The position numbers and the translations under genes were made by a program. Source: a virus. From it: a stretch of 26,543 nt of DNA. Positions 4,334-24,538 of the stretch are shown piece by piece. Under the pieces are notes generated by a model. That model worked only from the letters and a program-made list of their open reading frames with translations. It had not been told where the DNA came from and searched no databases. Numbering within the stretch: position 1 is the stretch's first letter; each line of letters starts with the position of its first letter. The stretch covers positions 1-26,543 of the IMG/VR virus record IMGVR_UViG_3300042563_002276, one strand, 5' to 3'.

Positions 4334-4341
4334 GTTCAAAA

Positions 4342-5556
4342 TTAAAGTAACTTCAAGAAAACCTTTCTAGTTTCCTCTTCGATTCTATTAATTGTAACTC
4401 TGATAGGATCTCCTTTCTTAATATCCTGAAGATTGATTCCATTTAATTCACTAGAATGTAGTAAACCTGTAATACCTTCTTCGATTTCAACAAAGATACC
4501 GTAATCTTTAATAGATCTAACAACTCCAGTAACTTCTGTTGCTGCAGGATATTTAGCTGCTGCTCCGTTCCATGGATTAACTTTAGAATCTATTTTCTGA
4601 GTTAATGTAATTTTAGTGTCTGTTATAATGTCCTTAACAAAGAACGTAATTGGAGTACCTGGTGTCAATTGATTTTTAGAATACAATTCTGAGAATTCTA
4701 AAGATAAATCATTAATATGAATCATTCCAGTTAAACATCCATTAAATTCTACGAATACTCCGTATTTAGTAGAACCAGTAACATGTCCATTATGTTCTTT
4801 CTCCATCTCTCCTCTAAGAGTATCAATATGCTGAGGAATCATTGCTTGTAAATATTTACGATGAGAAACTACAATTGTACCTTTTTCAGGTGAGAACGAA
4901 ACAGGAACAACATACATTTCTTGTCCGATTATCGATTCAAAATCAACTAATTTGTTAATTCCAGCAAGAGAACCTGGCATGAAACATTCAACTCCTTGTA
5001 CTGTTACCATATAACCTCCACCTGGAATCATCTCTTCAACTTTTCCAACATAAGCCATATTTTCTTCTTTAGAAGATTCTAGCAATTCATTGAAGATAAC
5101 TTGTTTAGTTCCTTCAGTAACTGAACCAACAAAGAAACCACGTTCTCTTGAAGTTGCAGTAACTTTAACTGAAAGTTCTCTATCCTTTTCGATTAATTTT
5201 CTAAATGATGGAGCTTCTTTTTCTAAGTCAATGTAAATTAATTCTCTGTAACCAGCATCGATAGTTGCCCATCTAGAGTCAACACCCCAAATTTTACCAG
5301 TTAATCTGTCTCCTAATTCAATATTAGGAACCATGTTTTCAAATGAACCCAAATACATGTCATACATCTTTTGAGCATCTTTTGCTCTTGAAAAGACTTT
5401 GTCACCATTTCGAGTTTTGACGTGAGGATTTCCCTTTCTTAAAAGACTAGGGCAGTCTGCTTCGTGGGTTTCCCAATCAAAATCGGGGTTTCCTTCGGTT
5501 TTAAAGATTTTGTTATTGTTAACAATCTCTTCGGGTTTTACTAATTCTTGTAGCAT
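4342..5556 (-). CDS. Multi-domain S1 RNA-binding protein, ribosomal protein S1-like
   Basis: The 404-residue product contains four consecutive OB-type S1 domains at about 80-150, 165-235, 250-320 and 338-404. The third and fourth are the clearest: GHVTGSTKYGVFVEFNGCLT followed by GMIHINDLS, and TGVVRSIKDYGIFVEIEEGI followed by TGLLHSSEL, both standard S1 signatures. The first two are more divergent (KIWGVDSRWATIDAGYRELI; GGGYMVTVQGVECFMPGSLA), as in the ribosome-binding domains 1-2 of bacterial S1. Residues 1-75 are charged and lack a recognised domain. Host S1 usually has six domains (about 590-600 residues in Bacteroidota), so this is a shortened form. S1 binds mRNA leaders on the 30S subunit and helps start translation; it is also a host subunit of the Q-beta replicase. 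The gene lies within the baseplate cluster, which suggests late expression. It has no Shine-Dalgarno sequence. Confidence 0.85.
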   Translation of the reverse strand: MLQELVKPEEIVNNNKIFKTEGNPDFDWETHEADCPSLLRKGNPHVKTRNGDKVFSRAKDAQKMYDMYLGSFENMVPNIELGDRLTGKIWGVDSRWATIDAGYRELIYIDLEKEAPSFRKLIEKDRELSVKVTATSRERGFFVGSVTEGTKQVIFNELLESSKEENMAYVGKVEEMIPGGGYMVTVQGVECFMPGSLAGINKLVDFESIIGQEMYVVPVSFSPEKGTIVVSHRKYLQAMIPQHIDTLRGEMEKEHNGHVTGSTKYGVFVEFNGCLTGMIHINDLSLEFSELYSKNQLTPGTPITFFVKDIITDTKITLTQKIDSKVNPWNGAAAKYPAATEVTGVVRSIKDYGIFVEIEEGITGLLHSSELNGINLQDIKKGDPIRVTINRIEEETRKVFLKLL

Positions 5557-5606
5557 TTATTTTATTTGTTAAAGGGTGAATGTATATTATAGTAGTATAT
5601 ATCAAT

Positions 5607-7397
5607 TTAAAATGAGGTTGGTACAAATCCAATCATCGGTACTGTAGCGCTTCCAACCGTTAATTTTCCAACATATATAAATTTCAATTCCATTAAATGT
5701 TTTGCGCAACATGTTGCAACTGCAGAAGCTACTGCCTTTGTAGCAGGTTGAGTGAGTGGTTCTAATTTAGCTAGCTTTCCAGTATTCCATGCTCTTCTAA
5801 GATTTTTTGCTAGAGATTTTTGACTTCCATAATATAATGGAATATATGAACCTGGGCTAGGAACATTACAAGGAGGTACTGGTGGAGAATTCTTAAATGG
5901 TTGAGCAGCTGCAGATTTCCAATACGATATAATTGTTTTTGCCATAGTATCGTATGGGTCGTTCTCTGTATCTGGATCCTCTTCCTTTTTTTCAGAAACT
6001 GCAAGTTCGTCAATCCATTGTTTTTTCAATAGGTTGTATTTGTCTCTATCAATTTTATAAAGATTTCTTTTTGCTTTAATCCTATCATCTTCATTTTCAT
6101 GGTTAGCTTTTTCATGCGATTTTAGCGTAATATCATCTATTCCATTAACATAGCAGAATTTACAAATAAATGTATCTGTTAACCAAGACGGCCAGATCTC
6201 TTTATCATCGAGATGTTCTAATTGAATAATCTTTTTATTTAATGGATTTGTTAAATCGGTTTTAAGATTCGAATTAACTTTGTTATATGTTTCATCAGCT
6301 TCGGTCTGTATCTTGTCATCAACTTTCTTTAAAAACTGAGTTTGAGTTGTACTAGAATCATAAGTTTTACCATCGATTGTAAACGTATACTTTCTATTCG
6401 AGGGCAGATCATATTGGGTCTGTGGAGTTACTACTAATTTTCTATTTTTATATAGATCAGTGTACCTATCTGTAATTTTTTTGACAATAGTTGGTCTTTC
6501 AGTAATTCCAAGTATTTTAACACATGATTCATATACCTTTTTACCGTACACTCTTTCATAACTTAATACAAATCTAGTTAAAAATCTTATGAATCGTATA
6601 TCGCCATCATTTTCGTATAATACTCTTTTTACGACTAATTCAAATTTCTGTTCCTCTGTCAGTTCTAGCTTTACTCGTTCGACACCATTCATAACTTCAG
6701 ACGGCTTAGTGCTGTCCTTTGGAATATCAAATTCTACAGTTTGATTTAATTTGTGTTGAATATCGGGAAATACAGAATCAACTACATTAATTAAAGTATA
6801 TTTGATTTTACCAGGTACATCAAATGGCACATATACATTTGCGATTCCAGATTCATCTGATATAATATTAATCTCTTCACCATCATTTATAGAATACGTA
6901 AACGTATATGGTGCTACACCGTTTTGACCCGTGAAAGTTAACACTGGTTGTTCAGCGTCGACTGCTACTCCAAATACCTCAGCACTCGTTAATTCAGGAG
7001 TTTCTGGCTCCGGCTTAGGTGGAAAGAATTCGTAAAACTTAGTATTCGGAAGAGAATCTCCTTTGCTAACAACCCACTTTCTAAATTCTTTTTCTGCATT
7101 ATACTTTTTTGGAATTGGTAAGCCTTCTAGTAGGTCAGCATAATTACCGTCCTTGATTTTATCTTCTAATGTAGGTGCTAAAGATTTAAATAAGTCATTA
7201 AATGCTTTTTTAAAGCCTTGTTCTAATACTGATTTTTGTCCAGCACTGTGTAGATTTCCGAATGGAGTTTGTGAAGTTTTGACTGCATTGAAATATTCAT
7301 TCGCAAAAAACATACCGAAGTCATCGGGTCCTTTAGAAGACCGACTAGCGAGTTTTGAGGATACGTTATTTATAAATATTGGCCACTGTGCAGGCAT
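5607..7397 (-). CDS. Large baseplate-cluster protein with Ig-like insert and C2H2 zinc-finger motif
   Basis: I do not recognise the 596-residue protein as a whole. Visible parts: an N-terminal helical region (1-125); a short Pro/Glu linker (126-136); an Ig-like beta domain at about 140-208 with PVLTFTGQNGVAPYTFTYSI, similar in style to repeats of flavobacterial surface adhesins (SprB-like); a charged helical middle; a classic C2H2 pattern C412-x2-C415-x12-H428-x4-H433; and a C-terminal region with AVASAVATCCAKHLMELKFI. The gene sits 31 bp downstream of the gp5-like spike gene and 50 bp upstream of the S1 gene. A peripheral baseplate or wedge role is likely from context. The zinc finger is probably structural, as in other virion proteins that bind metal, but DNA binding cannot be excluded. 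Confidence 0.6.
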   Translation of the reverse strand: MPAQWPIFINNVSSKLASRSSKGPDDFGMFFANEYFNAVKTSQTPFGNLHSAGQKSVLEQGFKKAFNDLFKSLAPTLEDKIKDGNYADLLEGLPIPKKYNAEKEFRKWVVSKGDSLPNTKFYEFFPPKPEPETPELTSAEVFGVAVDAEQPVLTFTGQNGVAPYTFTYSINDGEEINIISDESGIANVYVPFDVPGKIKYTLINVVDSVFPDIQHKLNQTVEFDIPKDSTKPSEVMNGVERVKLELTEEQKFELVVKRVLYENDGDIRFIRFLTRFVLSYERVYGKKVYESCVKILGITERPTIVKKITDRYTDLYKNRKLVVTPQTQYDLPSNRKYTFTIDGKTYDSSTTQTQFLKKVDDKIQTEADETYNKVNSNLKTDLTNPLNKKIIQLEHLDDKEIWPSWLTDTFICKFCYVNGIDDITLKSHEKANHENEDDRIKAKRNLYKIDRDKYNLLKKQWIDELAVSEKKEEDPDTENDPYDTMAKTIISYWKSAAAQPFKNSPPVPPCNVPSPGSYIPLYYGSQKSLAKNLRRAWNTGKLAKLEPLTQPATKAVASAVATCCAKHLMELKFIYVGKLTVGSATVPMIGFVPTSF

Positions 7398-7428
7398 AAT
7401 GTTATATTTTATAAGATATTTATCCTAA

Positions 7429-8139
7429 TTATTTACCTTCTTGCTGGTATGGCTTATGTACTGGAGCCCATGGTTTAACAGGAGGACCACTTGGACCGGT
7501 AGGAGTAGGATGTGTATGTGAATTATATTCAGATTTAAATGATTCCAAGAATTTTTCTAATGATTTACCTCTAACTGCAGGTTCTTTAGTATCTTCTGAT
7601 GCCTCTCCAGTATTTGACAAATAAACATTACCAGCATCTAAAAAGATTTTAGTATCTGTTGTAATTTTAATATTGTTATTTTCATCGATTTGTATTAGGG
7701 GTCTCTCCTTGGCACCCTTACCCTTTGTGATAATTATACCATCTTTAGGAGAATGATAGATCCTGATACCACGAATCTCATCGTAGACTAACGAGATAGT
7801 TTGTTGTGCTTCATCTTCTGATAGAGCATCTAATACTTCAGACTTAAGAATCTTTCGTTGATTGATTTGATAAAAATATTCAGGATGGTATAAGTTACCA
7901 TTGTCGAAACGAATTGAAACAATATCATCTATATTAGGAATGGCATGAGCTCCAACTGTATTTCTATTTCCACAAGCTGCCCATGGAATATCTTCAGGAG
8001 GAACATTATCAAATTTACCGTAAACTAAGACTTTGCATCTTCCATTTTTCAACGGATCTTTATTATCAACAACCTTTCCAAGCCATTGAGTTTCTCTGAT
8101 ATTATCTCCGCCACCTATTTCGTCAACTGTTGCTGCCAT
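7429..8139 (-). CDS. gp5: Baseplate central spike, gp5/gpV-type OB-fold protein without lysozyme domain
   Basis: The 236-residue product has the gp5/Vgr OB domain at about 17-95: LGKVVDNKDPLKNGRCKVLV followed by PPEDIPWAAC, the conserved DP...GR...V...PWA pattern. A beta-rich stem follows (DGIIITKGKGA; IQIDENNNIKITTDTKIFLD), expected to build the trimeric spike, then SHTHPTPTGPSGPP near 207-220, a His/Pro-rich ending common in phage spike proteins. T4 gp5 is 575 residues and carries a lysozyme domain between OB and spike; that domain is absent here. The gene is 5 bp from the unknown tube/hub gene at 8145 and in the same run as the gp27-like gene, its expected hub partner. Confidence 0.85.
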   Translation of the reverse strand: MAATVDEIGGGDNIRETQWLGKVVDNKDPLKNGRCKVLVYGKFDNVPPEDIPWAACGNRNTVGAHAIPNIDDIVSIRFDNGNLYHPEYFYQINQRKILKSEVLDALSEDEAQQTISLVYDEIRGIRIYHSPKDGIIITKGKGAKERPLIQIDENNNIKITTDTKIFLDAGNVYLSNTGEASEDTKEPAVRGKSLEKFLESFKSEYNSHTHPTPTGPSGPPVKPWAPVHKPYQQEGK

Positions 8140-8144
8140 TTGAA

Positions 8145-9440
8145 TTATTTATATACGTTACCTAATGCAATTAAAGCATCTCTATTTGCCTTGTTTAAAA
8201 CATCAACTAATGGAGTTCCATTTAAAAAGTGTACATTTTTACCAACAACGCTCTCAATCGCACCTGCAATACTTTTAACATCAGTTGCAGCGTCTGCCGC
8301 TCTTTGTACTTTACCATATATGTTTTCTAGGCTAGGTACTCTACGGTTTACATATCTTGCAGCTTCGATTTTTGCCTCTTCAACTTTAGATTTTGCCATT
8401 CTTTTTAAATCACCTTCTGCTCTTTTACCGTAACCGTTAAGTTTTTCTTTAGCAGTATTCTTTAAGTTTTTAAGTTTACTACCAGCTTTCTGAGCTAATG
8501 GTATTTTTGAAGCCTGTTTAGGATCTGCCGGATTAATAGAATCTAATTTTTCTTGAGCTCCTGATACATCAGCTATAGAATCCTCATCCATTAATCTTCT
8601 ATCAATTTTTTGATATTCGTTTTCAGTATCACTAGTTGGAACCATGGTTCCAGACTTTTCTGAAACTGGATTATCTTTAATATCTTTTCTTGAAATAGCA
8701 GGTGATTGAAAAACAACACCATTTAAAGCTCGAGCATCTATTTTAAAAACTCTATTGTAATTAATAATAATCTCATTTGTCGCCATTTCCGGAGCTGCTG
8801 CACTTAAATCACTTAAAAACTTGTTTCCACTTGTCATATCAAATTCGCATAATCTTAAATCAAACATGAAAAATGGTTTAAGAGTTTCTCCAGCTATAAC
8901 GCCATCAGCAGAATTGTCATAAATACTTCTAACATCAGAGATGAAAACGTACATATTAAATTTTCTTAAATTAGGCGGTAAAACATAAGTCCATCTGCCT
9001 TCATCCCATACTGCCTTTCTATATAGTTGCATTAAACCTGCAATATTTAAGTTAATTGTTTCTAAACATCCAATTATTAATTTAGCATCTGCTCCACCGA
9101 AGAACGGGTTTTCTGGAGTAAATTGTAATAAACGATCAACACCACCTAGAGTTTGCCAATGCCAAGAAAGTTCCGAATTAATTTTATACAAAGCTTCTTT
9201 AAAAGCTATAAGAGAATCTAATTTATGTTGATATTTAGCAGGATCTGCTGGAAGTAAATGTTTCTTAATAAATCCTTCAGCTTCACCATTAAATAAAGGT
9301 GAATACAAATTCATATCAAATAATAAAGTAAACGACAAATATGTCGGATCCTGGTAAGAAGACATGTCTATTTTCGGAGTATCTCCCTTTTTAAGGAGTC
9401 CCGATTTTCTAAATGATTGTAATTCTAAGAATGCTGACAT
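8145..9440 (-). CDS. Putative baseplate hub / tail-tube cap protein
   Basis: The 431-residue product has a globular N-terminal part (1-225) with WTYVLPPNLRKFNMYVFISD near 150-170 and FFMFDLRLCEFDMTSG near 190-205. That LP-x-NLR...V...R then C-E-F pattern is reminiscent of tail-tube-fold initiator/cap proteins of T4-like phages (gp48/gp54), but I cannot establish homology by eye. Residues about 300-385 are Lys/Ala/Glu-rich and strongly helical (KLKNLKNTAKEKLNGYGKRA), probably a coiled coil. No enzyme motif or membrane segment is visible. It lies between the gp5-like and gp27-like hub genes, which makes a central baseplate position likely. Confidence 0.5.
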   Translation of the reverse strand: MSAFLELQSFRKSGLLKKGDTPKIDMSSYQDPTYLSFTLLFDMNLYSPLFNGEAEGFIKKHLLPADPAKYQHKLDSLIAFKEALYKINSELSWHWQTLGGVDRLLQFTPENPFFGGADAKLIIGCLETINLNIAGLMQLYRKAVWDEGRWTYVLPPNLRKFNMYVFISDVRSIYDNSADGVIAGETLKPFFMFDLRLCEFDMTSGNKFLSDLSAAAPEMATNEIIINYNRVFKIDARALNGVVFQSPAISRKDIKDNPVSEKSGTMVPTSDTENEYQKIDRRLMDEDSIADVSGAQEKLDSINPADPKQASKIPLAQKAGSKLKNLKNTAKEKLNGYGKRAEGDLKRMAKSKVEEAKIEAARYVNRRVPSLENIYGKVQRAADAATDVKSIAGAIESVVGKNVHFLNGTPLVDVLNKANRDALIALGNVYK

Positions 9441-9471
9441 GTTTTATATATTTGTTTTATTAAAGAAGCGA

Positions 9472-11676
9472 CTAATACATTTGCAATTCTGATGCTTCTT
9501 CAGTTTCTTCTAAAACGGTTTTATAATCGGTACCTTGTTTTCTACCTGTTACAGGACTATTATATTCAAGTGCTTCACTCTTCTTGGTAAATCTACCCTC
9601 GAATATTCCACTTTCAGTGGAGTTAACCACTTCCCATCTATATTGTTTTTTGTTAGATTCAGTAGCACCTTGTTTTAATATTTTACCAGGTAACCATTTA
9701 GCAAATGATAACTTAGTATTTTTAGTAAAAGTCTGATCTTTATATGTCAAAGTTACTTCGAGAGTATAGTTACCCTCTTTATCTTTAAAGGTATCTTTAG
9801 GAAGATCTAATGTCGTATTGTACTTCCATCCATAATTACCTGAAGCTACAGTATCTTCCATAGAAACCGAAGCATTAATTTCAGAAGTACTAGGTCCTAC
9901 AAATTTAACTTTGATTTTAGGAGTTTCTTTTACTAATGTTTTATCATTGGCTGTCCATTGGAATTTCAAACTATAATCTTTCCAAGATCCTAAACTGTTT
10001 GTAATAGCTTCTAGCATTTCAAAATTTAGATCAAATACAGGTTCTCCTAGTTTTTCTTCTGGAGTTGGTTCTGCTGGTTCCTCAGGAGCTGGTTCCGGGG
10101 CTGGATTTGGATCTGGTTCCGGAGCTGGCGCAGCAGGAGGAGATTGGTCGTCCATAACCTCTTCTTCAACTTGATTAAGCTTAGTTGGCCATTCTCTTCT
10201 AAGAAGAGTTACCTTCTGTTGAATACCTTTACCATTTTCATAATCATACATGTATTCAATATCTTCAATTATATAGAATCCACTATGAAATTCGTCCATT
10301 GCAATTTTATCACCACCATCAGATTCGATATCTTCGCCATAGTCTTCTCCCATCGTTGGAAATCCTTTTTCTTCTTTCTTTTCTTTAAGAGCGTTAAGAC
10401 GATCAACTTCAGATTTATTATGAGCTGTGATAAACACAGGAATCTTCATATATGGATATAAAGCAGGATTCATATTTTCTACCAAAACTTCTAATTTCAT
10501 TTTGCCACATTCAGCTAAATTCATTTTATTTTGTATAGCACCGAAGTAGTGATTTGGATTCATGTTACCATGAGTTTTATCAACATCCATTCTGCCAACA
10601 AATTTCTGTTTAACTTCCTCTTTGTATCTTGTTTTGTCAGATCTTCGACCCTTCATAGGTTCTTCAATATCTGACATTTTCTTGCTTGCTCTAGGTTCAA
10701 TATCAAAACTAAGCAATCCTTCTTCACTGTCGTTTTCAAAGTATTGTAGTTTCATTTTATAACCCATCTTAGCGGTCTTCTCTCCTGATTCATTTATAAT
10801 TTTAAAGTTACTAATAAATTGAGAAGACGATTGATACGATGGATGGTTAGTTAACATCAGAGTACCTTCAATTTCATTATTTTCGTCTCCATCTTCTGGA
10901 TTCTTATTAATGTTTTCTTGAAGCTTACTTAGATAACTAGCCTCTAAGTCATTGTTCGAATTAATGACTTTATTTAAGTCAACGTAGTTTAAATAATAAT
11001 ATGGATCAATTTTACCAACAACAAAGCTCTCATCGTCGATATAACCATGTTTAATAATATCAGTAATGAAAGTTATTTTTGGCATATATGCACAGAATCT
11101 AGCCATTTCATCGTCAGTTGAATCTATGTTTGTTGCAAAACCTAATTCTAATTCAGTTGCAATTTGTTCTAAGTGATCTAATGATGTTTTACGACCATAT
11201 CCCTTTGATTCTTCTGCTAATATCTTAGGTACCTTCATTCTACCAAAAATAGAATATTCTCCAGGGTATTGAGCTTGTGGATCAGCATCTTCACCTTCTG
11301 CCTGGTTACCACTACATCTAATAATATCAAAATCAATTCTAATATCTTTAAAAACTTTTTCTTGTCTAGCGGCTATTCTAAGACTGACAACATCACCATC
11401 TCTAGGAAGTGAATCTCCTCGAAAATGGCCTTGGCTGTCCATGAATTTTACATTGATTTCTGGTAAAAACTTTGAAATTGAAATATTACAAAAATGTAAA
11501 TCACTTTGATCCACATCTATATTATTAATTCTGATAGCAGGTGTAAGAGATCCGTTTTCTTTAGATATTTTCTTGCCTTCAGGATCTTCCTCTTTTCCAG
11601 AATCAAATACCATTGGATCCAACTTGATAGTTGGTTCTGTTATTACTAGTATATGTCTATCTAAATCGCTTGCCAT
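9472..11676 (-). CDS. gp27: Baseplate hub protein, T4 gp27-like, with extra C-terminal domain
   Basis: The 734-residue product is much longer than T4 gp27 (391 residues). The N-terminal 500 residues look like a gp27/VgrG hub: ISISKFLPEINVKFMDSQGH near 66-85, LRIAARQEKVFKDIRIDFDI near 98-117, and DHLEQIATELELGFATNIDS near 166-186, typical of this family. Residues about 510-542 are a Pro/Glu/Ala-rich linker (PAPEPDPNPAPEPAPEEPAE), encoded near 10054-10140. The remaining 190 residues form a probable Ig-like beta domain (KFQWTANDKTLVKETPKIKV; GNYTLEVTLTYKDQTFTK) and a short tail. The hub trimer normally links the tail tube to the spike. The linker and extra domain suggest an exposed appendage, perhaps for peptidoglycan or surface contact; that is inference. 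Confidence 0.72.
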   Translation of the reverse strand: MASDLDRHILVITEPTIKLDPMVFDSGKEEDPEGKKISKENGSLTPAIRINNIDVDQSDLHFCNISISKFLPEINVKFMDSQGHFRGDSLPRDGDVVSLRIAARQEKVFKDIRIDFDIIRCSGNQAEGEDADPQAQYPGEYSIFGRMKVPKILAEESKGYGRKTSLDHLEQIATELELGFATNIDSTDDEMARFCAYMPKITFITDIIKHGYIDDESFVVGKIDPYYYLNYVDLNKVINSNNDLEASYLSKLQENINKNPEDGDENNEIEGTLMLTNHPSYQSSSQFISNFKIINESGEKTAKMGYKMKLQYFENDSEEGLLSFDIEPRASKKMSDIEEPMKGRRSDKTRYKEEVKQKFVGRMDVDKTHGNMNPNHYFGAIQNKMNLAECGKMKLEVLVENMNPALYPYMKIPVFITAHNKSEVDRLNALKEKKEEKGFPTMGEDYGEDIESDGGDKIAMDEFHSGFYIIEDIEYMYDYENGKGIQQKVTLLRREWPTKLNQVEEEVMDDQSPPAAPAPEPDPNPAPEPAPEEPAEPTPEEKLGEPVFDLNFEMLEAITNSLGSWKDYSLKFQWTANDKTLVKETPKIKVKFVGPSTSEINASVSMEDTVASGNYGWKYNTTLDLPKDTFKDKEGNYTLEVTLTYKDQTFTKNTKLSFAKWLPGKILKQGATESNKKQYRWEVVNSTESGIFEGRFTKKSEALEYNSPVTGRKQGTDYKTVLEETEEASELQMY

Positions 11677-11684
11677 GTTTTAAA

Positions 11685-16364: not shown

Positions 16365-16373
16365 ATTTATAAT

Positions 16374-17530: not shown

Positions 17531-17543
17531 AATATTATATTAT

Positions 17544-17981: not shown

Positions 17982-18016
17982 AGTAATTATATTATAAATT
18001 AAGGATTTGTTTAAAT

Positions 18017-18042: not shown

Positions 18043-18067
18043 TGTATTCTAATATGTATTATTAAGA

Positions 18068-18571
18068 TTATTCAGCTTCAGGTTCTCCGTCTTCGTCAGG
18101 TTCTTGTCCAGCTTCTTGTAACTTAATACTGTCAATTTTATTAGAGAAAGCCTCTTTAATAGTATTTAAAGCAGATTCGTATGCTTCCATACCATAAGCT
18201 TCTTTACATTCTTTAAGAGCTTTTCCAGCAAGACCAGCTACAAGTGCAGCATTTTCGGCCATATAACTTTCGGCAGTATGATCGTCATGTGCGTCATTCT
18301 CCCATTCCATTGCTTCTTTTACAACGTCTTGGTAACAAGATTCTAAAATTTCAGAAACTAATTTCTTAACTTCCTCTTCTTTAGTCTCTTCTTCTGCAGT
18401 TTCTCCAGCTTCTGGAGATTCTTCAGCTTCATTAGTTTGTACCTCATCAGCTTCAGCTTCGGTATCTTCAACATCCATAGGTACTGGAGTACCAGCATCT
18501 ACGATGTCTTTTTCGATTTCTTCAGATCGGTCCATTTCAGTAACGAACTGTTCAAATGATTTAAATTTCAT
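18068..18571 (-). CDS. Acidic protein with T4 capsid-targeting-like N-terminus; candidate internal head or scaffold protein
   Basis: The 167-residue product begins MKFKSFEQFVTEMDRSEE. The segment KSFEQFVTE aligns with the T4 internal-protein targeting peptide KTYQEFIAE, matching exactly at Lys, Phe and Glu and conservatively elsewhere; V-T-E also fits the [hydrophobic]-x-E cleavage rule of the T4 prohead protease gp21. Residues 20-75 are extremely acidic (ETAEEETKEEEVKKLVSEIL), residues 75-155 helical, and the end acidic (EAGQEPDEDGEPEAE). Acidic helical composition is typical of prohead core scaffold proteins such as gp67/gp68. I infer packaging into the capsid core; whether it is scaffold or injected internal protein is open. 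The gene is monocistronic-looking, followed by a strong terminator. Confidence 0.6.
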   Translation of the reverse strand: MKFKSFEQFVTEMDRSEEIEKDIVDAGTPVPMDVEDTEAEADEVQTNEAEESPEAGETAEEETKEEEVKKLVSEILESCYQDVVKEAMEWENDAHDDHTAESYMAENAALVAGLAGKALKECKEAYGMEAYESALNTIKEAFSNKIDSIKLQEAGQEPDEDGEPEAE

Positions 18572-18600
18572 GTTAATTATATTTTTTTATAATCTATATA

Positions 18601-18894
18601 TTAGACTTTAGGATTTTTAGGTTTCCTACCTCTTCTTTTTTTACCAGTAGCGGCATCAACAACATCAGCAGCCTGTTTAGTAACTTCTTTTGCGGCTACT
18701 TTAACATCAGCAACCTCTTCTTTAACTCTTTTAGTACGAGCTTTAATTTCTTTTTTGATAGCCTTCATTTTTTCTTCAGCACTATCTGGAATAGCATTCT
18801 TGTTTTCGTCTTTAACTTTACCTGTTTTTGTCAAAATAAAACTTAAACCGGCAATTGCCAATAGTACGACTGTAACGATTAATAATGTTTTCAT
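18601..18894 (-). CDS. Small membrane-anchored protein with very basic C-terminal tail
   Basis: The 97-residue product has one N-terminal transmembrane helix (about 3-22, LLIVTVVLLAIAGLSFILT), a short D/N-rich turn (KDENKNAIPDSAE, 28-40), a long Lys/Val/Ala helix and a tail KKRRGRKPKNPKV. With the short N-terminus and positive tail the basic end should face the cytoplasm. The RGRKP core resembles AT-hook and other nucleic-acid-binding tails, so tethering of DNA or RNA to the membrane is conceivable but unproven. It starts 36 bp after a strong terminator and lies 29 bp upstream of the acidic-protein gene. Confidence 0.65.
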   Translation of the reverse strand: MKTLLIVTVVLLAIAGLSFILTKTGKVKDENKNAIPDSAEEKMKAIKKEIKARTKRVKEEVADVKVAAKEVTKQAADVVDAATGKKRRGRKPKNPKV

Positions 18895-18929
18895 AATATT
18901 GATTTTTAATTTAATTATATATCCATCAC

Positions 18930-18957
18930 AAAAAAGGCCATTCCGAAGAATGGCCTT
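18930..18957 (-). terminator. Rho-independent terminator with UUCG tetraloop
   Basis: A perfect 10-bp stem (arms 18934-18943 and 18948-18957, AAGGCCATTC/GAATGGCCTT) closes on the very stable C(UUCG)G loop as read on the minus strand and is followed by six T (complement of 18930-18935). It lies 21 bp after the stop of the gene at 18979 and ends that transcript. Confidence 0.93.
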
Positions 18958-18978
18958 GTAAATTAGAAGCTGGTTAAC

Positions 18979-19206
18979 TTATACCATTTCTGGTTTAGGT
19001 TCTAGTGGCTTAAACAAAACTTCCAATGTCGCAATTAGGTCATTTGCTTCTCCGACTTTTCTTACTAATTTATCCATTTCATCGATTATTTGAGGATGTT
19101 CTCCAATACCAACCGAGTTTTCGAAATAAACTGCTAAAATAGCCAATGCTTCTTTCTTTTGTGCTTCATATCTAGCATGTAGCGCTTCAACTTTTAATGA
19201 TGACAT
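18979..19206 (-). CDS. Unknown 75-residue helical protein
   Basis: No family recognised. The product is mostly helical (VEALHARYEAQKKEALAILA; IIDEMDKLVRKVGEANDLIA) with a short Gly-containing turn between two helices and a Pro-rich end, suggesting a helical hairpin that could dimerise. It follows the UV-damage endonuclease gene by 33 bp and is the last gene before a strong terminator. No Shine-Dalgarno sequence. Confidence 0.65.
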   Translation of the reverse strand: MSSLKVEALHARYEAQKKEALAILAVYFENSVGIGEHPQIIDEMDKLVRKVGEANDLIATLEVLFKPLEPKPEMV

Positions 19207-19239
19207 ATCTTTTTATGATTTAATTTAAATTTATATGGA

Positions 19240-20163
19240 CTAGACCAAAATTGTTTCATATTTTTGTAAATAATTTTGCAGAGCATGGTCCTTTGCTTTA
19301 GCTTCTAAGTCAACATCGATTGATAATCCATAAGAATTAATCTTTTCGTAGATATGATCAGCATGCGCACGATTAACAACTGACGAATCCTCGTGAATTT
19401 TCTTACATGAGCTATAATGAACTAACTGTCGAATACCTTCTGGCCAAGTAGTAGCTGCAAGATACAATGCATCTTTTTCTGGCATCGGGTCGTCATAACA
19501 CCAATGATGATGGTAATCAAATACGATTGGAATTCCTGTGTGAGCTGATAAACCATGAACTAGATCACCTATAGAATATTGAGCTTTTTTATCGTCATTC
19601 TCTACAGTCATACGTTCTTTGACAGAAAGATCTAGAGTATCGAATGCTTTGATAAAACGCTGAATAGAATCTTCTTTACCGTTTGCAGTAGTATTGATGT
19701 GTATATTGATTGCAGCATCTGGAGTTCTAGGTAGACCCATTAGATCCATGAATTCGCCGTGCTGATTAAGTTCTTTAATAGAACGGACAACAACATCTGG
19801 ATTCATACTTGCAATTACGCAAAAATGACCAGGATGGAAAGTTAACCTTTGACCAGCATCCATTGCAATTTTACCAGCACCTCTTAAAAGATTAGAAATT
19901 TTAGAATAGTCTGGTAAATCTTTAAGCTCATATTCGGACATCCATGGAATCATATCAGAAGACATACGGTACAACTTGACACCGTGTTGATTATTCCATT
20001 TAATAATTTCGATGAGGTCCCTGACATTACTAAGCGCAAGTTCACTAGCATAATTTATACCTTTCTGTTCGAAAGTTTTTTTAATCATACCGCGGCCGAT
20101 TGTAATTCCATTCTTCTGCTGAAGAGTCAAATTTATACAGCAATATCCAAATCTATTCTTCAT
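19240..20163 (-). CDS. uvsE: UV damage endonuclease (UvdE/UvsE family)
   Basis: The 307-residue product has the family's TIM-barrel metal sites: RFGYCCINL at 4-12, YRMSSDMIPW at 65-74, RLTFHPGHF at 106-114, LNQHGEFMDLMG at 132-143, INIHINT near H155, TVENDD at 186-191, VFDYHHHW near 214-221 and HYSS at 249-252. These His, Glu and Asp residues bind the metal cluster. The enzyme nicks DNA 5' of UV photoproducts and starts repair independent of nucleotide excision. I place the start at ATG 20163; a TTG nine bases upstream is also in frame but UvsE proteins usually begin near the RxGY motif. GGAG lies 4-7 bases before this ATG, a rare Shine-Dalgarno-like case here. The start overlaps the end of the upstream 47-residue gene by 11 nt. 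Confidence 0.93.
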   Translation of the reverse strand: MKNRFGYCCINLTLQQKNGITIGRGMIKKTFEQKGINYASELALSNVRDLIEIIKWNNQHGVKLYRMSSDMIPWMSEYELKDLPDYSKISNLLRGAGKIAMDAGQRLTFHPGHFCVIASMNPDVVVRSIKELNQHGEFMDLMGLPRTPDAAINIHINTTANGKEDSIQRFIKAFDTLDLSVKERMTVENDDKKAQYSIGDLVHGLSAHTGIPIVFDYHHHWCYDDPMPEKDALYLAATTWPEGIRQLVHYSSCKKIHEDSSVVNRAHADHIYEKINSYGLSIDVDLEAKAKDHALQNYLQKYETILV

Positions 20164-20296
20164 ATTCTCCAATTACGTTGTTTCTCCACCAGTTTTTAAA
20201 TTTAGAATCGTCAGGCATTTTAGCAATTCTAGTGTCTAAGACAAAAGGACCTATTACTATAATAAGTCCGATTATTATATAAAGAATTAGTCCCAT
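20153..20296 (-). CDS. 47-residue single-span membrane protein
   Basis: An ATG at 20296 opens a 47-codon frame ending in TAG at 20153. The product begins MGLILYIIIGLIIVIGPFVL, a clear transmembrane helix, and continues with a charged cytoplasmic-type tail containing KFKNWWRNNVIGEYEE. It overlaps the stop of the upstream gene by 10 nt and the start of the UV endonuclease gene by 11 nt, filling an otherwise empty 123-bp gap, which is how neighbouring genes are packed. Function unknown; short phage membrane proteins of this kind can act in lysis control, superinfection exclusion or as envelope modulators. Confidence 0.7.
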   Translation of the reverse strand: MGLILYIIIGLIIVIGPFVLDTRIAKMPDDSKFKNWWRNNVIGEYEE

Positions 20297-20703
20297 TGTT
20301 TCTCAAATTTATACCAATGATCTGCGCTAGCACAATCTCTAAAGGCATCTATTATGAGAGCATCCATTTCGCTACCGCTAAGAGATTCAGTAAAGGCTTT
20401 TATAAAACCTTCTAGAACTAATATCTGGTCAGGTTGCATTGAATAATTCTGAAATTCTGGATAAAGTTCTTTAACAGCTTCTCTAGTAATAGCGCTTGCA
20501 AGACGATGGTATACGGTATCATCATTACCACATCTGGTTCCAAAATAATAATCATCAGTTTGGATAGCTTCGATTTTTGACATAATATCTTCTGTCGAAA
20601 ACCTCATGCGGAATAACTTAATAGATGTTAACAATAAGTGTTTGCTTGATTCAACTGGACCAGCAAAGCTGCTTCCATTACATTTGATTTGTTCTACTTT
20701 CAT
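20287..20703 (-). CDS. Unknown 138-residue protein
   Basis: No family recognised. The sequence begins MKVEQIKCNGSSFAGPVESS and is mainly helical (HLLLTSIKLFRMRFSTEDIM; ILVLEGFIKAFTESLSGSEM) with a Trp/Tyr-rich end HWYKFEKQWD. No signal peptide or membrane helix. It begins 2 bp after the stop of the upstream gene and overlaps the 47-residue membrane gene by 10 nt, so it belongs to the operon that starts at the promoter near 21273. Confidence 0.65.
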   Translation of the reverse strand: MKVEQIKCNGSSFAGPVESSKHLLLTSIKLFRMRFSTEDIMSKIEAIQTDDYYFGTRCGNDDTVYHRLASAITREAVKELYPEFQNYSMQPDQILVLEGFIKAFTESLSGSEMDALIIDAFRDCASADHWYKFEKQWD

Positions 20704-20705
20704 TT

Positions 20706-20951
20706 TTAGTTTAGTTTATTTTCAACAATAATCATCTCTTCTGCCCATGGTTTTGATTCGAACCGAAGGCCTTGTTCCTTTAAATAAGATTCATATTTAC
20801 TTGAATTCTTAGCAAGTTCTAAGGCAACTTCAGTATCTTCTCCTGAATCAGATGGATCTATATTAATAAATCCACAATATTCTGGGCTAGAAGGATCTAG
20901 TTGATAATCCTCTCGGATTGATTTGATATAATTTTTGATTTTTGATTCCAT
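20706..20951 (-). CDS. Unknown 81-residue acidic protein
   Basis: No family recognised. The product starts MESKIKNYIKSIREDYQLDP, has an acidic centre (DPSDSGEDTEVALELAKNSS) and ends in a helix-strand (SKPWAEEMIIVENKLN). It is separated from both neighbours by only 2 bp, in a tight run of four genes ending with the UV endonuclease. No motif indicates a function. Confidence 0.62.
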   Translation of the reverse strand: MESKIKNYIKSIREDYQLDPSSPEYCGFINIDPSDSGEDTEVALELAKNSSKYESYLKEQGLRFESKPWAEEMIIVENKLN

Positions 20952-20953
20952 GA

Positions 20954-21250
20954 TTAAATAACTTCGATTAAACTGATAGGTACACTAATAAGTCCGATAC
21001 GACCAGCTTCTTGTAAATAGGCTTTAGATCGGTTGATTTGGTTAACGGTAAATGTTTTACCACCAGCTTTAGGATGGTTAACTTTAACGGTATCTCCAAC
21101 AGATAATAGACGTTTGATTGCTCTAGCATCTGAAACCCTACGGATTTTGATAACGTCGATAACGTCCTGGTTTAGTTGTGATAACTCTACAGTAGAAAGT
21201 GTTTCTAACATTCTAAGGATTTGTGGGTAATTTGAAAGTGGATTTGACAT
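20954..21250 (-). CDS. Unknown 98-residue protein with KOW/SH3-like segment
   Basis: The N-terminal half is helical (PQILRMLETLSTVELSQLNQ). Residues 49-75 read LLSVGDTVKVNHPKAGGKTF followed by TVNQINRSKAYLQ, a short SH3/KOW-like beta barrel pattern (GD-x-V...G...V..I.R..A) common in nucleic-acid or ribosome-associated proteins. I cannot name the family. It is the first gene behind the promoter-like repeat at 21273-21289 and starts 22 bp downstream of it, so it probably leads an early operon. A regulatory RNA- or DNA-binding role is possible. Confidence 0.65.
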   Translation of the reverse strand: MSNPLSNYPQILRMLETLSTVELSQLNQDVIDVIKIRRVSDARAIKRLLSVGDTVKVNHPKAGGKTFTVNQINRSKAYLQEAGRIGLISVPISLIEVI

Positions 21251-21289
21251 AATGTATCTTTGTTAATTTGTTATATGTAAATATAAACA
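21248..21289. repeat. 42-bp direct repeat, copy 1 (promoter and leader of the 20954-21250 gene)
   Basis: These 42 bp, including the start codon, are identical to 21747-21788. They cover the whole upstream region of the gene: motif, A-rich leader and ATG. Identity up to but not beyond the start codon suggests duplication of an expression module rather than of a gene. Confidence 0.9.
21273..21289 (-). promoter_or_regulatory. Probable promoter, copy 1 of a repeated motif
   Basis: On the minus strand this reads TGTTTATATTTACATAT, 22 bp before the ATG at 21250. The same 17-mer occurs at 21772 and 26082 at nearly the same distance from start codons. A start of transcription just after it would leave a leader of about 10-15 nt. 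It matches neither the sigma-70 spacing nor the Bacteroidota TAnnTTTG box clearly. Confidence 0.6.
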
Positions 21290-21344
21290 TAATATTTCAA
21301 ACGGTAAAACTTTTATTGAAGTATTTTCAAAAAAGTTATTAACA

Positions 21345-21749
21345 TTATTCCCAAGCAGCTATAAGACCTTGGTCAGCTGCTTCAGTTTCGCGCATCAACA
21401 TAATTTCGGCACCAGCTTCGGTATAAACTGGATATTCCCAAAACATTTTGATTTGGTCGTTCCAAGTAGTATTACCGATAAAACTACCTTTATCTTCATT
21501 ATAAAGAGAAACGCATTGGTCAGGATTCGCAATACGAATCGGCTCAGCAAAGGCCTGAGCTTGAGTGAACGTAACATTTTCTAATGTCCATTCGGTCTGG
21601 TTCATTTTAACTAACTCGTCAAAAAACTCAGTATTGTCATAGTAATTATCTGAACCTGTAGAAGCTTTAAACTGCGCTCTAATCTGAGTGTACTGTTCCT
21701 TTGAAGGACTTAAAACTACTTTAACTTGTTTTTGGATTGAATTCATCAT
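21345..21749 (-). CDS. Unknown 134-residue protein behind an early-type promoter
   Basis: No family recognised. The product begins MMNSIQKQVKVVLSPSKEQY, is mixed alpha/beta with several aromatic strands (QIKMFWEYPVYTEAGAEIML) and ends acidic (RETEAADQGLIAAWE). It stands alone between two promoter-like repeats and behind a terminator, so it is probably a single-gene transcript, a pattern typical of early host-takeover genes. The 55 bp from 21290 to 21344 after its stop hold an AT-rich stretch with a segment GTTAATAACTTTTTTGAAAA that recurs after the gene ending at 21844. Confidence 0.65.
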   Translation of the reverse strand: MMNSIQKQVKVVLSPSKEQYTQIRAQFKASTGSDNYYDNTEFFDELVKMNQTEWTLENVTFTQAQAFAEPIRIANPDQCVSLYNEDKGSFIGNTTWNDQIKMFWEYPVYTEAGAEIMLMRETEAADQGLIAAWE

Positions 21750-21788
21750 AATGTATCTTTGTTAATTTGTTATATGTAAATATAAACA
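21747..21788. repeat. 42-bp direct repeat, copy 2 (promoter and leader of the 21345-21749 gene)
   Basis: Identical to 21248-21289 over 42 bp, again ending at the start codon. A terminator hairpin abuts its upstream end, so terminator and promoter form one compact boundary between transcripts. Confidence 0.9.
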
Positions 21789-21789
21789 A
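21772..21789 (-). promoter_or_regulatory. Probable promoter, copy 2 of a repeated motif
   Basis: On the minus strand TTGTTTATATTTACATAT, 22 bp before the ATG at 21749, directly downstream of a terminator. Shares 18 of 18 bases with 26082-26099. Confidence 0.62.
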
Positions 21790-21816
21790 AAAACTCGACA
21801 TAAAAAAATGCCGAGT
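21788..21816 (-). terminator. Rho-independent terminator after the rnhB-membrane protein operon
   Basis: On the minus strand ACTCGGCAT pairs with ATGTCGAGT (9 bp with one G-U pair; arms 21793-21801 and 21808-21816) around a T-rich loop and is followed by six T. It lies 27 bp after the stop at 21844 and touches the next promoter. Confidence 0.78.
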
Positions 21817-21843
21817 GAAATATTTTCAAAAAGTTATTAACAA

Positions 21844-22188
21844 TTATTTCCAGAATATCTGGACGCAGATCAATATGAATGCTAAAAATAGCGATACAAC
21901 CGTCTTAGTATTTAACGGCTCATCTAATATCATATATGTTAGAAATGAAAATGCGATCATTCCTGTAGTAAATCCAATAAATCTACCAGGCCATAGTTGA
22001 CCATCATAATATTCAGCAACAAAGGCAGTTGCAATAATGAACATATATGAAATAATAGATCCTCCTATAAATGCAACTATGATTGGATGTTTCTTAAACC
22101 ACGGCCAGACAAATTGACCATTAGTTTGGAACCATATTAGAGATTGTCCTAATAAAAATAATAAGGTTCCATATATTAAATTCCTCAT
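21844..22188 (-). CDS. Four-helix membrane protein, resembling small DMT/SMR-type transporters
   Basis: The 114-residue product has four hydrophobic spans at about 3-20, 35-58, 66-87 and 93-112. The last two, RFIGFTTGMIAFSFLTYMIL then DEPLNTKTVVSLFLAFILIC, show the gE-p-l-s...G..LI..G arrangement seen at the end of EamA/SMR half-transporters. The usual buried Glu in helix 1 of SMR pumps is not evident, so transport function is uncertain. Its start overlaps the rnhB stop as TAATG, indicating coupled translation. Alternatives are a phage membrane modulator without transport activity. Confidence 0.6.
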   Translation of the reverse strand: MRNLIYGTLLFLLGQSLIWFQTNGQFVWPWFKKHPIIVAFIGGSIISYMFIIATAFVAEYYDGQLWPGRFIGFTTGMIAFSFLTYMILDEPLNTKTVVSLFLAFILICVQIFWK

Positions 22189-22817
22189 TAAAATAATTCG
22201 CTTGTCGAGGTTAACAAGTGAGATATGAAACTAGCTCTGTGTTCTGCTGTAGAACCAACTTCTTGAATAGCATTGATGTGTTGCTTAGTACCATACCCTT
22301 TATTAGAAGCCCAGCCATATACCTTATTTTGGTTTACTTCATTCAAAGTTTTCATATAATTGTCTCTAGCTACTTTTGCTAAGATTGAAGCAGCTGCGAT
22401 TGAAGTATATTTGTTATCTCCACCGACTATTGTAGTATAACTTTTGTCTTTATATCCGTGGAACTGATCTCCATCAATTAAAACAAAATCAAAATCAACG
22501 GAAGATTGAACTTCCTCGAGAGATTGATTCATTCCAATTAGAGTAGCTTTTAATATGTTGGTATTTTCGATTGTATCGACGTCAATGTGTACTACTGAAT
22601 ATGCAATAGCATTTGCTAATACGATTTCATGTGCTTGTTTCTTTTGAGATTCTGAAAGAAGTTTTGAATCTTTTACAAGTGGGTGTTGAAAGTCTGCTGG
22701 CATAATACAAGCTGCGACAGTAACTGGACCAGCCAACGCTCCTCTTCCGGCTTCATCTACACCAACTTCAATTAAATCTGTTCCGGTATTGTACTTTGGT
22801 TTTAGTAAAATTTGCAT
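22188..22817 (-). CDS. rnhB: Ribonuclease HII
   Basis: The 209-residue product carries the full RNase HII signature: GVDEAGRGALAGPV at 19-32 with D21 and E22, DSKLLS at 50-55, VLIDGD near D115, GGDNKYTSIAAASILAKVAR at 132-151 with D134 completing the DEDD catalytic set, and WASNKGYGTKQH with HRASF near the end. It cleaves the RNA strand of RNA-DNA hybrids and single ribonucleotides in DNA; in a phage it would remove primers, a job done in T4 by an unrelated RNase H. Length is typical (about 200). Translation is coupled at both ends by TAATG overlaps. Confidence 0.95.
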   Translation of the reverse strand: MQILLKPKYNTGTDLIEVGVDEAGRGALAGPVTVAACIMPADFQHPLVKDSKLLSESQKKQAHEIVLANAIAYSVVHIDVDTIENTNILKATLIGMNQSLEEVQSSVDFDFVLIDGDQFHGYKDKSYTTIVGGDNKYTSIAAASILAKVARDNYMKTLNEVNQNKVYGWASNKGYGTKQHINAIQEVGSTAEHRASFISHLLTSTSELF

Positions 22818-23227
22818 TATGTTGATTGTTTAAGATTATCGTATATGCTATGGTAAAGTGCGTATTGATTTTGAAAAATCTCATCTTCCATTATTTTGCG
22901 AGAATTTTCGATTTGCATTTTAATGTAGTTGATTATTTTATCTCCATCGCTAGGGTTAAGGCTTTTGTATGAAAAGAAGGTATGATTAGTAATTCTAATC
23001 CTGTCATATTCAACAACTATGAAATATCCTAGATCTTTATTCTCTAGATAATAGGTATGGCTAACAGGTGCGGTTAACATCTTTGTTTTTGGATGTTTAG
23101 CCATCGCTCTTACGATCGTGTAAATCATAGCGGTGTCCTTGTCCATTTTACCTTTGCGGCTATCGACTAATCTAGCCCACTTGGTAGCTGTAATTCGTTT
23201 TGCTTTTGTTAAAAATTTAAATGCCAT
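22817..23227 (-). CDS. Unknown 136-residue basic protein with start codon in a hairpin
   Basis: No family recognised. The N-terminus is basic (MAFKFLTKAKRITATKWARL; RKGKMDKDTAMIYTIVRAMA), the middle beta-rich (YYLENKDLGYFIVVEYDRIR) and the end helical. The composition fits a nucleic-acid-binding protein. Its ATG and first codons lie in the 3' arm of a perfect 15-bp inverted repeat (23219-23269), which could hide the start in mRNA and allow autoregulation. It leads a coupled trio with rnhB and the membrane protein. Confidence 0.68.
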   Translation of the reverse strand: MAFKFLTKAKRITATKWARLVDSRKGKMDKDTAMIYTIVRAMAKHPKTKMLTAPVSHTYYLENKDLGYFIVVEYDRIRITNHTFFSYKSLNPSDGDKIINYIKMQIENSRKIMEDEIFQNQYALYHSIYDNLKQST

Positions 23228-23269
23228 ATAATTGTTATAGGTTTAACGTATACAAATTATATGGCATTT
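23219..23269 (-). promoter_or_regulatory. Perfect 15-bp inverted repeat enclosing the start codon of the 22817-23227 gene
   Basis: Arms 23219-23233 and 23255-23269 (AAATGCCATATAATT on the plus strand) are fully complementary, separated by 21 nt. On the mRNA the 3' arm contains ATATGGCATTT, that is the start codon and codons 2 and 3. No T-run follows, so it is not a terminator. The 5' arm contains another ATG opening a 10-codon frame that ends in the loop (TAA). Confidence 0.75.
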
Positions 23270-23293
23270 TATTAAATAGTTTCAATAATATCT

Positions 23294-23989
23294 TTACTTA
23301 TTATTGTCGTACTTCCATTTCTCATATCGGCGCACTATCTCTTTTAAGATTTCTGCACGAACAATATCACTCTCACCAAATTGATGAACACCCACGTCTT
23401 TAACGCCTGTCATCAGGTCAATGAACTGTGGCAGAGAAACTTTGCTCTTTTCAATATCGTATTGACTAACGTCTCCGGCAATTACAACTTTACTATTCTC
23501 TCCCATTCGGGTAATGAATAACATTAGTTGCTTCCAGTCTGCGTTTTGAGCCTCGTCTAGAATCATGATAGCATCGTCAAAGGTGTCTCCTCTCATGTAT
23601 GCTAAAGGTTGAAATTCTACTGCTCCACTGCCTAATAATTTAGCAGCCTCGCTGAATCCGATAATTTTTTCAATATTTGAAGTAAATGACTTGATGTATG
23701 GAGCAATCTTTTCATCGATTGTACCAGGTAAGAAACCTAGTTTTTCTCCAGCCTCTTGAATTGGTTTTGTTAAGATAATTCTTTTTATTTTCTTTTCTCT
23801 GAGTAATTTAATTGCAGCATAACATGCTGAAAAAGTTTTAGAAGTACCAGCAGGACCATAACAGAAGGTGATTTGGTTTTTAAGAATAGTATCAACGTAT
23901 CCTTGCTGAGACTCTTTTAAATAAATTCTGTTTAAAGAATTGTCGGTGTTAGTTGCACTAACTTTCGCGTTACTAGCTTTTCTTGTCAT
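23294..23989 (-). CDS. phoH: PhoH-like P-loop ATPase
   Basis: The 231-residue product has Walker A GPAGTSKT at 45-52 (Ser replaces the usual Gly before Lys), Walker B MILDEAQN at 142-149, GEKLGFLPGTIDEKIAPY at 81-98 and VVIAGDVSQYD further on, all typical of phage PhoH. PhoH proteins couple an ATPase to RNA metabolism (helicase or RNase adaptor roles are proposed) and are widespread in marine T4-like phages. I use ATG 23989; an in-frame TTG at 24019 would overlap the previous gene and add ten basic residues. The transcript continues 66 bp to the next gene through an inverted repeat. Confidence 0.92.
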   Translation of the reverse strand: MTRKASNAKVSATNTDNSLNRIYLKESQQGYVDTILKNQITFCYGPAGTSKTFSACYAAIKLLREKKIKRIILTKPIQEAGEKLGFLPGTIDEKIAPYIKSFTSNIEKIIGFSEAAKLLGSGAVEFQPLAYMRGDTFDDAIMILDEAQNADWKQLMLFITRMGENSKVVIAGDVSQYDIEKSKVSLPQFIDLMTGVKDVGVHQFGESDIVRAEILKEIVRRYEKWKYDNNK

Positions 23990-24005
23990 TCGTTGTTTTT
24001 TGTGT

Positions 24006-24266
24006 TTAATCTCCTGCAATTATTACAAGAGAGTTTAGTTTCATCAAAGTATCACACTTTTCATATTCTTCTAAAGATTCAAAATACTTAATAAGTAATT
24101 TAATAAATTTAGATCTTTGGCCGATGCCATGCGGTATTTCGATCATATCTTTACCTTCTTGAAACACAATGAATCGATTCACTGATTTAGTAAAGTTCCG
24201 GGTCAAAGTATAATAACTTGACCTCATGATTTCGTCTTGTTCTTTCTTTGGTAGATTATCGCTCAT
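24006..24266 (-). CDS. Small EEYEKC-motif protein A
   Basis: The 86-residue product ends FIKLLIKYFESLEEYEKCDT before LMKLNSLVIIAGD. The motif F-[IL]-x-x-[WY]-[YF]-E-x-x-EEYEKC-x-x-[LI] recurs in the products at 24538 and 25759. The helical segment resembles UVR/McsA-type helical hairpins (E-[ED]-YEKA-x-x-[LI]-R) that mediate protein-protein contacts; this is similarity by eye. The N-terminal 55 residues differ from the other two and contain SSYYTLTRNFTKSVNRFIVF. It lies 16 bp upstream of phoH. Confidence 0.7.
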   Translation of the reverse strand: MSDNLPKKEQDEIMRSSYYTLTRNFTKSVNRFIVFQEGKDMIEIPHGIGQRSKFIKLLIKYFESLEEYEKCDTLMKLNSLVIIAGD

Positions 24267-24300
24267 TTAATAAAAGTATCATTCGATTCTATGCTATATA

Positions 24301-24321
24301 TTTACAGATAACTTCTGTAAA
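24301..24321. promoter_or_regulatory. Perfect 8-bp dyad upstream of EEYEKC protein A
   Basis: TTTACAGA (24301-24308) and TCTGTAAA (24314-24321) flank 5 nt. No T-run follows in either direction. It lies 19 bp after the bS21 stop and 34 bp before the ATG at 24266, so it may be an operator or leader hairpin. It overlaps a reversed near-copy of the promoter-like motif (24295-24312). Confidence 0.5.
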
Positions 24322-24340
24322 CACATGGATTGAGAACATA

Positions 24341-24538
24341 TTATGATTCTTTTTCAGATTGCGATTTCAAGGCTTGTACGTATTTTGCCTTCTTGATGGT
24401 GAAACGTTTGTCAACTGATTTTTTAGTAAATTCTTTTTGATCTCTTAATTTTAAAAGTTGTTTCGTTTTAATAACTTTGCTCTTGTATTTCTTAAGAGCC
24501 TGTTCGATATTTCCATTTTTAACTTCGATTATCAGCAT
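24341..24538 (-). CDS. rpsU: Ribosomal protein bS21, phage-encoded
   Basis: The 65-residue product MLIIEVKNGNIEQALKKYKS then KVIKTKQLLKLRDQKEF then TKKSVDKRFTIKKAKYVQAL matches bS21 over its whole length: the V-K-x-G...ALK-[RK]-[YF]-K start, the RLR/KLRD turn, F-x-K-[PS] and the basic helical end. The C-terminal KKAKYVQ with Tyr53 is the flavobacterial form; in that group a bS21 Tyr near this place helps hold the 16S rRNA 3' end. bS21 is a small-subunit protein needed for efficient initiation. Phages of many types carry it and the product can be incorporated in 30S subunits. Unlike many host rpsU genes in Bacteroidota, no strong Shine-Dalgarno sequence precedes it; its ATG overlaps the upstream stop (TAATG). 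Confidence 0.9.
   Translation of the reverse strand: MLIIEVKNGNIEQALKKYKSKVIKTKQLLKLRDQKEFTKKSVDKRFTIKKAKYVQALKSQSEKES

Follow-up and report, generated by a model that had tools for sequence, protein, structure and literature searches.

The 26.5-kb window analyzed here (positions 1 to 26,543 of IMG/VR virus record IMGVR_UViG_3300042563_002276) encodes homologues of two proteins of the bacterial small ribosomal subunit, a bS21 and a shortened bS1-like protein (S1). The pairing of S1 and bS21 is common and ordered within a clade of related phages and is not obligatory. As one joint explanation, we consider it moderately probable that the window is a fragment of a jumbo or huge phage, kin of the published Mahaphage-type huge phages and with a Bacteroidota-type host, and that its bS21 and shortened S1 enter host 30S subunits and sustain initiation without Shine-Dalgarno (SD) sequences. 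All main genes of the window, including the following two, lie on the minus strand.

4342-5556, minus strand: bS1-like protein of 404 amino acids with four OB-fold (S1) domains, OB1-OB4 (Pfam/NCBIfam, phmmer, AlphaFold model)
24341-24538, minus strand: bS21 homologue of 65 amino acids (Pfam, alignment to 7jil)

The two proteins and their pairing in related phages

The S1 protein matches the Pfam S1 family (E=2.6e-19), and its residues 52-401 match NCBIfam models of 30S ribosomal protein S1 (best E=5e-45). Because its best score falls far below the equivalog cut-offs of these models (154 versus 524 bits), the protein is classified as a truncated, divergent bS1-like protein rather than as bS1. 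Pairwise phmmer aligns it continuously with residues 9-345 of E. coli bS1, corresponding to OB1 to OB4. The domain order of bS1, with docking domains OB1-OB2 followed by RNA-binding OB domains, is recovered by alignment and by structural match. An AlphaFold model from 29 phage sequences (pLDDT 77.6, pTM 0.50) has as its top Protein Data Bank matches bS1 in the 30S mRNA-delivery complex (E=2.9e-27) and 30S-bound OB1-OB2, the latter compared with OB1-2 of the model at a target-normalized TM of 0.70. OB2-OB3 is the most conserved portion of the phage protein, and the OB1-OB2 ribosome-docking pair is retained. The order and fold of OB1-OB4 are thus shared with host bS1, both of Bacteroidota and of E. 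coli, whereas the phage protein differs in missing the two C-terminal domains (OB5-OB6), in being only ~25-30% identical to cellular S1, and in being no nearer to Flavobacterium johnsoniae than to E. coli.

Residues 4-54 of the window bS21 match the Pfam family Ribosomal_S21 (PF01165, E=3.3e-9, 36.8 bits against a cut-off of 27). The protein scores below the NCBIfam TIGR00030 equivalog cut-off (24.9 versus 28.95 bits), and membership is accepted on the Pfam match together with the alignment to F. johnsoniae bS21, its best solved relative (7jil, E=1.2e-10). Its matches in a plasmid collection are Bacteroides, Parabacteroides and Phocaeicola sequences only. Tyr53 of the window protein aligns with F. 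johnsoniae Tyr54, the Bacteroidia-type aromatic residue that occludes the anti-SD, and the equivalent position in phage bS21 proteins is tyrosine in 39 of 41, with one histidine and one lysine. An aromatic residue at position 54 of phage bS21 was reported by Chen et al. 2022 (PMC9723584), as was divergence between phage and host in the N-terminal part of the protein. A motif common to the phage proteins, KVIKTKQ (window residues 21-27; alignment A2), falls in this N-terminal part; F. johnsoniae has KFDKTGT there. Both proteins are therefore genuine, as the preliminary description of this DNA had proposed.

That description had also called for a search of relatives for the pair, and the pair recurs. 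bS21 was sought in 38 S1-bearing viral contigs longer than 30 kb and is present in 16. Among contigs with at least 28 kb of sequence upstream of S1 it is found in 16 of 19, in every case 16.7-27.1 kb upstream of S1 and on its strand; the 28-kb limit was set after the distances had been seen, and a 20-kb limit gives 16 of 22. The three exceptions with more than 28 kb (G015, G017 and G029) are one closely related sub-lineage. In the reverse direction, S1 is present in 12 of 35 bS21 contigs and in all three contigs of 385-508 kb reached via bS21; G040, G043, G044 and G051 also have both genes. Relatives of both proteins are also encoded in four public huge-phage genomes (LR756501, LR745206, LR756502 and LR756504). 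Many of the contigs are near-duplicates, so these counts do not represent independent events.

Gene neighborhoods of S1 and bS21

S1 is embedded among structural genes.

1-14248, minus strand: baseplate/tail module enclosing S1, with baseplate J-like, gp25-like, baseplate V OB-domain and LysM-like genes (Pfam, several matches weak; order conserved in the examined S1-bearing loci)
3005-4297, minus strand: Amidoligase_2-type gene immediately downstream of S1 (Pfam, synteny)
5607-7397, minus strand: gene immediately upstream of S1 in many relatives, without a family match (Pfam scan, synteny)

Essentially all S1 relatives down to ~45% identity share a one-strand order of baseplate V, (5607-like), S1, amidoligase, 2165-like, gp25-like and baseplate J genes, and LR756500 has the same order more loosely. 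The Amidoligase_2-type gene adjoins S1 in essentially all relatives, and in part of the clade the 5607-7397 gene evolves fast or has been replaced. The amidoligase-type protein might modify protein or act on the cell wall. Judged by this gene order, S1 is likely expressed together with late structural genes here. In a 735-kb phage S1 is located elsewhere, ~6 kb from a PhoH gene, and baseplate neighbors of the window type were not seen at the S1 locus of the 735-kb, 634-642-kb and Lak phages. An obligatory structural role for S1 is disfavored, since its location is not universal.

bS21 lies among PhoH, DnaJ, Hsp20 and RNase HII genes, in the region that also carries a promoter-like repeat.

24538-24789, minus strand: open reading frame (ORF) of 83 amino acids immediately upstream of bS21 (ORF list, leader sequence)
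24786-25580, minus strand: DnaJ-like chaperone, in a gene string shared with bS21 (Pfam)
23294-24019, minus strand: PhoH-like ATPase close to bS21 (Pfam E=3.9e-64; listed with a TTG start, internal ATG also possible)
26082-26100, 21772-21790 and 21273-21291, minus strand: promoter-like repeat TTTGTTTATATTTACATAT (motif scan, at most three mismatches)

The bS21 start overlaps the stop of the preceding 83-amino-acid ORF as TAATG, and the two are probably translationally coupled. Three small ORFs around bS21 (24006-24266, 24538-24789 and 25759-26061, all on the minus strand) have in common an EEYEKC-type C-terminal motif and appear paralogue-like; none has a significant Pfam match. Accessory genes occupy 17544-24019 (minus strand) and include dCMP deaminase, UvdE endonuclease, RNase HII and PhoH. 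Neither a terminase nor a capsid gene is recognized in the 26.5-kb window, an Rfam scan of the window gives no match, and ARAGORN finds no tRNA in it.

The repeat TTTGTTTATATTTACATAT has three coding-strand matches against 0.11 expected, each followed closely by an ATG, and resembles a phage promoter belonging to another class. Two copies head identical 30-nucleotide leaders (genes 20954-21250 and 21345-21749). Its 15-base core is present in four copies in most near-relative bS21 loci, and no copy of the element turned up when S1/baseplate loci were checked. A terminator-like hairpin (25771-25749) lies between the nearest copy (26082-26100) and the bS21 gene string. Two other promoter types gave no signal: the T4-like late promoter TATAAATA has 7 matches against 5.2 expected, and Sigma-70-type promoters number 58 against 54 in shuffles.

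The preliminary description had assigned S1 to a late cluster and bS21 to an early-type region. The first placement is consistent with the baseplate/tail module around S1, and the two genes do occupy different neighborhoods; an early status of bS21 is not supported, and in metatranscriptomes of other Bacteroidota phages its transcripts appear late, alongside those of structural genes (Chen et al. 2022, PMC9723584).

Start-site leaders and host

The leader set comprises 37 ATG-start genes, from which the two TTG-listed genes (19240-20172 and 23294-24019) were excluded because their starts are uncertain. GGAGG, AGGAG, GGAG, GAGG and AGGA do not occur at -20 to -4 in any of the 37 leaders, and none forms an anti-SD duplex of -4.4 kcal/mol or below; by the same measure, such duplexes precede 12.8% of all 624 coding-strand ATGs, and shuffled leaders yield 0.5 ± 0.6 of 37. 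The SD absence in the window is thus mostly explained by composition, namely the low G+C of the leaders. An A is found at -3 in 26 of the 37 leaders, compared with 49% A across leaders (p=0.0125, uncorrected for 24 positions) and 34% before any ATG. The earlier observation of SD-less leaders with A around -3 is borne out by these motif counts and base frequencies.

The attribution of SD absence to the pair of proteins does not survive comparison with other phages, all processed with the same simple ORF caller. The fraction of genes with an SD motif is 0.03-0.07 in the window and its S1- and bS21-bearing relatives, 0.03 in MaF61 (Flavobacterium), 0.00 in PTm1 (Tenacibaculum) and 0.11 in phi38:1 (Cellulophaga). 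crAss001 is intermediate at 0.26 (shuffled 0.14), while T4 reaches 0.74 and the bS21-bearing pelagiphage HTVC008M 0.41. Searches of MaF61, PTm1 and phi38:1 gave no match to either S1 or bS21. Because phages without either protein are about equally SD-less, SD absence tracks the host and not S1/bS21, and host phylum is a possible confounder of the correlation reported for rpS1 with a lack of SD sites (PMC7162821). A at -3 is somewhat more frequent in the window (0.68) than in these three phages (0.50), a modest gap in small samples.

Leaders of bS21 itself were surveyed across phages. A host-type autoregulatory SD is in general absent, with duplexes of -4.4 kcal/mol or stronger in 5 of 69 leaders compared with 4.1% of other ORFs. 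In one phage carrying both S1 and bS21 (L091:9221, IMGVR_UViG_3300012663_000707), bS21 is preceded by a very strong SD (GGAGG, -11.4 kcal/mol), the sole strong one among the 31 ORFs of the locus, which resembles the extended SD reported for Flavobacteriales host rpsU; none of 585 other surveyed ORFs is as strong as -8.

A Bacteroidota-type host, as proposed in the preliminary description, fits several sequence features of the window: bS21 is nearest to F. johnsoniae and Bacteroides proteins and carries the Tyr54 equivalent, the genes are SD-less, and a tail gene is kin to those of Flavobacterium and Tenacibaculum phages. A Bacteroidota origin of S1 was considered and rejected, as the A1 profile scores E. 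coli bS1 at 192 bits and F. johnsoniae bS1 at 176, giving no phylum signal. The N-terminal DF(D/N)W of phage S1 resembles NFNW of F. johnsoniae bS1 (9zcd); the resemblance is short, the N-terminal stretch alone is not significant, and we treat it as a lead only. Close relatives of S1 sought in bacterial genomes as a means of naming the host yielded one distant, uninformative match in an alphaproteobacterial contig from a metagenome-assembled genome.

Proposed role, alternatives and described systems

Bacteroidia ribosomes hide the anti-SD with the aid of bS21 Tyr54 (PMC9976891). Below, we set out how the two phage proteins could act on such ribosomes. The host ribosome would conceal its anti-SD behind bS21, bS18 and bS6, so that phage genes, like those of the host, would start from SD-less A-rich leaders. 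The phage would supply its own bS21, retaining the aromatic residue that keeps the anti-SD away, and a shortened bS1 whose OB1-OB4 comprise the ribosome-docking pair and the first RNA-binding pair. On host 30S subunits both could be exchanged in or act as competitors, and SD-less initiation would be sustained or biased toward phage mRNA. On the simplest reading their effects would point the same way, so that SD-less initiation on phage messages is maintained or reinforced while late synthesis is heavy; S1 is probably late, since it would be transcribed in one block with the baseplate genes. What we show is the identity and domain make-up of the two proteins, their co-occurrence and fixed synteny, and the absence of SD sites; that they bind ribosomes, that they favor phage mRNA and when they are made is what we infer. 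Related experiments are consistent with individual steps: loss of the C-terminus of bS21 leaves F. johnsoniae ribosomes poor at starting translation on SD-less mRNA, and supplying bS1 promoted initiation on one such mRNA (both PMC9976891); a phage bS21 is able to enter E. coli ribosomes (PMC6375957).

Several observations weigh against this explanation. S1/OB domains are found in many RNA-binding proteins, and the binding of phage S1 to ribosomes is deduced from homology. The two proteins are separable, as many bS21 phages lack S1 (a 270-kb contig, for example) and LR756500 and Lak-A2 encode S1 without detectable bS21. A phage bS21 profile likewise found no match in G015, G017 and G029, in a search without its own positive control. 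S1 sits within the baseplate module across the whole near clade, which could mean a virion-linked role. Finally, S1 itself carries no Bacteroidota signal, and the host phylum comes from indirect evidence.

The baseplate setting gives rise to an alternative that we regard as unlikely, in which S1 is an RNA-binding protein, made late and either associated with the baseplate or delivered by the virion, rather than a ribosome factor, and bS21 is independent of it. The invariant place of S1 between baseplate genes and the amidoligase in ~80 relatives, looser in LR756500, speaks for such a role; the 735-kb, 634-642-kb and Lak phages, however, indicate that the module is not required, and retention of the OB1-OB2 docking pair, with OB2-OB3 most conserved, also argues against it. 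Phage S1 could instead serve RNA metabolism off the ribosome, in mRNA protection, in unwinding or as a nuclease or polymerase partner. Host S1 does serve T4 RegB and Q-beta replicase (PMC13157829), and RNase HII and PhoH genes lie within the same window, but the immediate neighbors of S1 are structural rather than RNA-processing genes, and we find this role very unlikely.

Other alternatives keep both proteins on the ribosome and assign them a more specific task. They could form a matched pair, in which bS21 hides the anti-SD and the four-domain S1, expressed alongside the baseplate genes, recognizes some feature of phage leaders, giving a phage-specific SD-independent initiation complex in the late phase; we consider this quite unlikely. 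The time-dependent remodeling of initiation put forward in the preliminary description would be a two-stage program, with bS21 early and S1 late, jointly switching initiation between mRNA classes over time. The separate neighborhoods of the two genes agree with it, and the presence of TTTGTTTATATTTACATAT on the bS21 side and not in the checked S1/baseplate loci is consistent with two transcription classes. However, the hairpin at 25771-25749 separates the 26082-26100 element from the bS21 string, no two leader classes are apparent by eye in the window, similar leaders occur in phages with neither protein, and published bS21 expression is late (PMC9723584). Moreover, a phage bS21 that retains the anti-SD-occluding aromatic should preserve SD-blind initiation and not remodel it. 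We rate this program the least probable of the alternatives and retain the explanation that bS21 and S1 jointly sustain SD-less initiation on host 30S subunits.

The pair is not new to phage biology, although the author of the preliminary description knew of no described system pairing the two proteins in a Bacteroidota phage. In huge phages, S1 and S21 were described by Al-Shayeb et al. 2020 (PMC7162821), who proposed their substitution into ribosomes, predicted Bacteroidetes hosts for Mahaphages of >634 kb and noted that SD sites are rare in S1-bearing phages. The window, with both proteins and SD-less genes, resembles these phages in content and may resemble them in host type. Its S1 is at most 36.6% identical to theirs, and its arrangement, with S1 in a baseplate module and bS21 ~19 kb upstream, was not found reported in that paper. 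Freshwater Bacteroidetes phages with bS21 (PMC9723584) share the aromatic residue at position 54 and probably the host group; unlike the window, they are stated to be without other ribosomal protein genes and carry bS21 beside terminase/capsid genes, whereas the window has bS21 beside DnaJ and PhoH and also encodes S1. Jumbo cyanophage PhiMa05 (PMC13157829) similarly encodes bS1 plus other ribosomal proteins, but its six listed proteins do not include bS21, its host is cyanobacterial and the companions differ.

Already known, then, are S1 and S21 in huge phages, the predicted Bacteroidetes hosts of the largest ones and the lack of SD sites (2020), and late bS21 expression (2022). Added here are the OB1-OB4 make-up of S1, the fixed two-gene arrangement, the conserved pairing of S1 with the amidoligase gene inside the baseplate module, and the control in which SD absence proves independent of the two proteins. 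In such phages a lack of SD sites accompanies the host and is unusable as evidence of a phage rewiring initiation. In many Bacteroidota-type jumbo phages S1 and bS21 travel together, with their order and strand fixed, and a joint role at the 30S platform thereby becomes testable.

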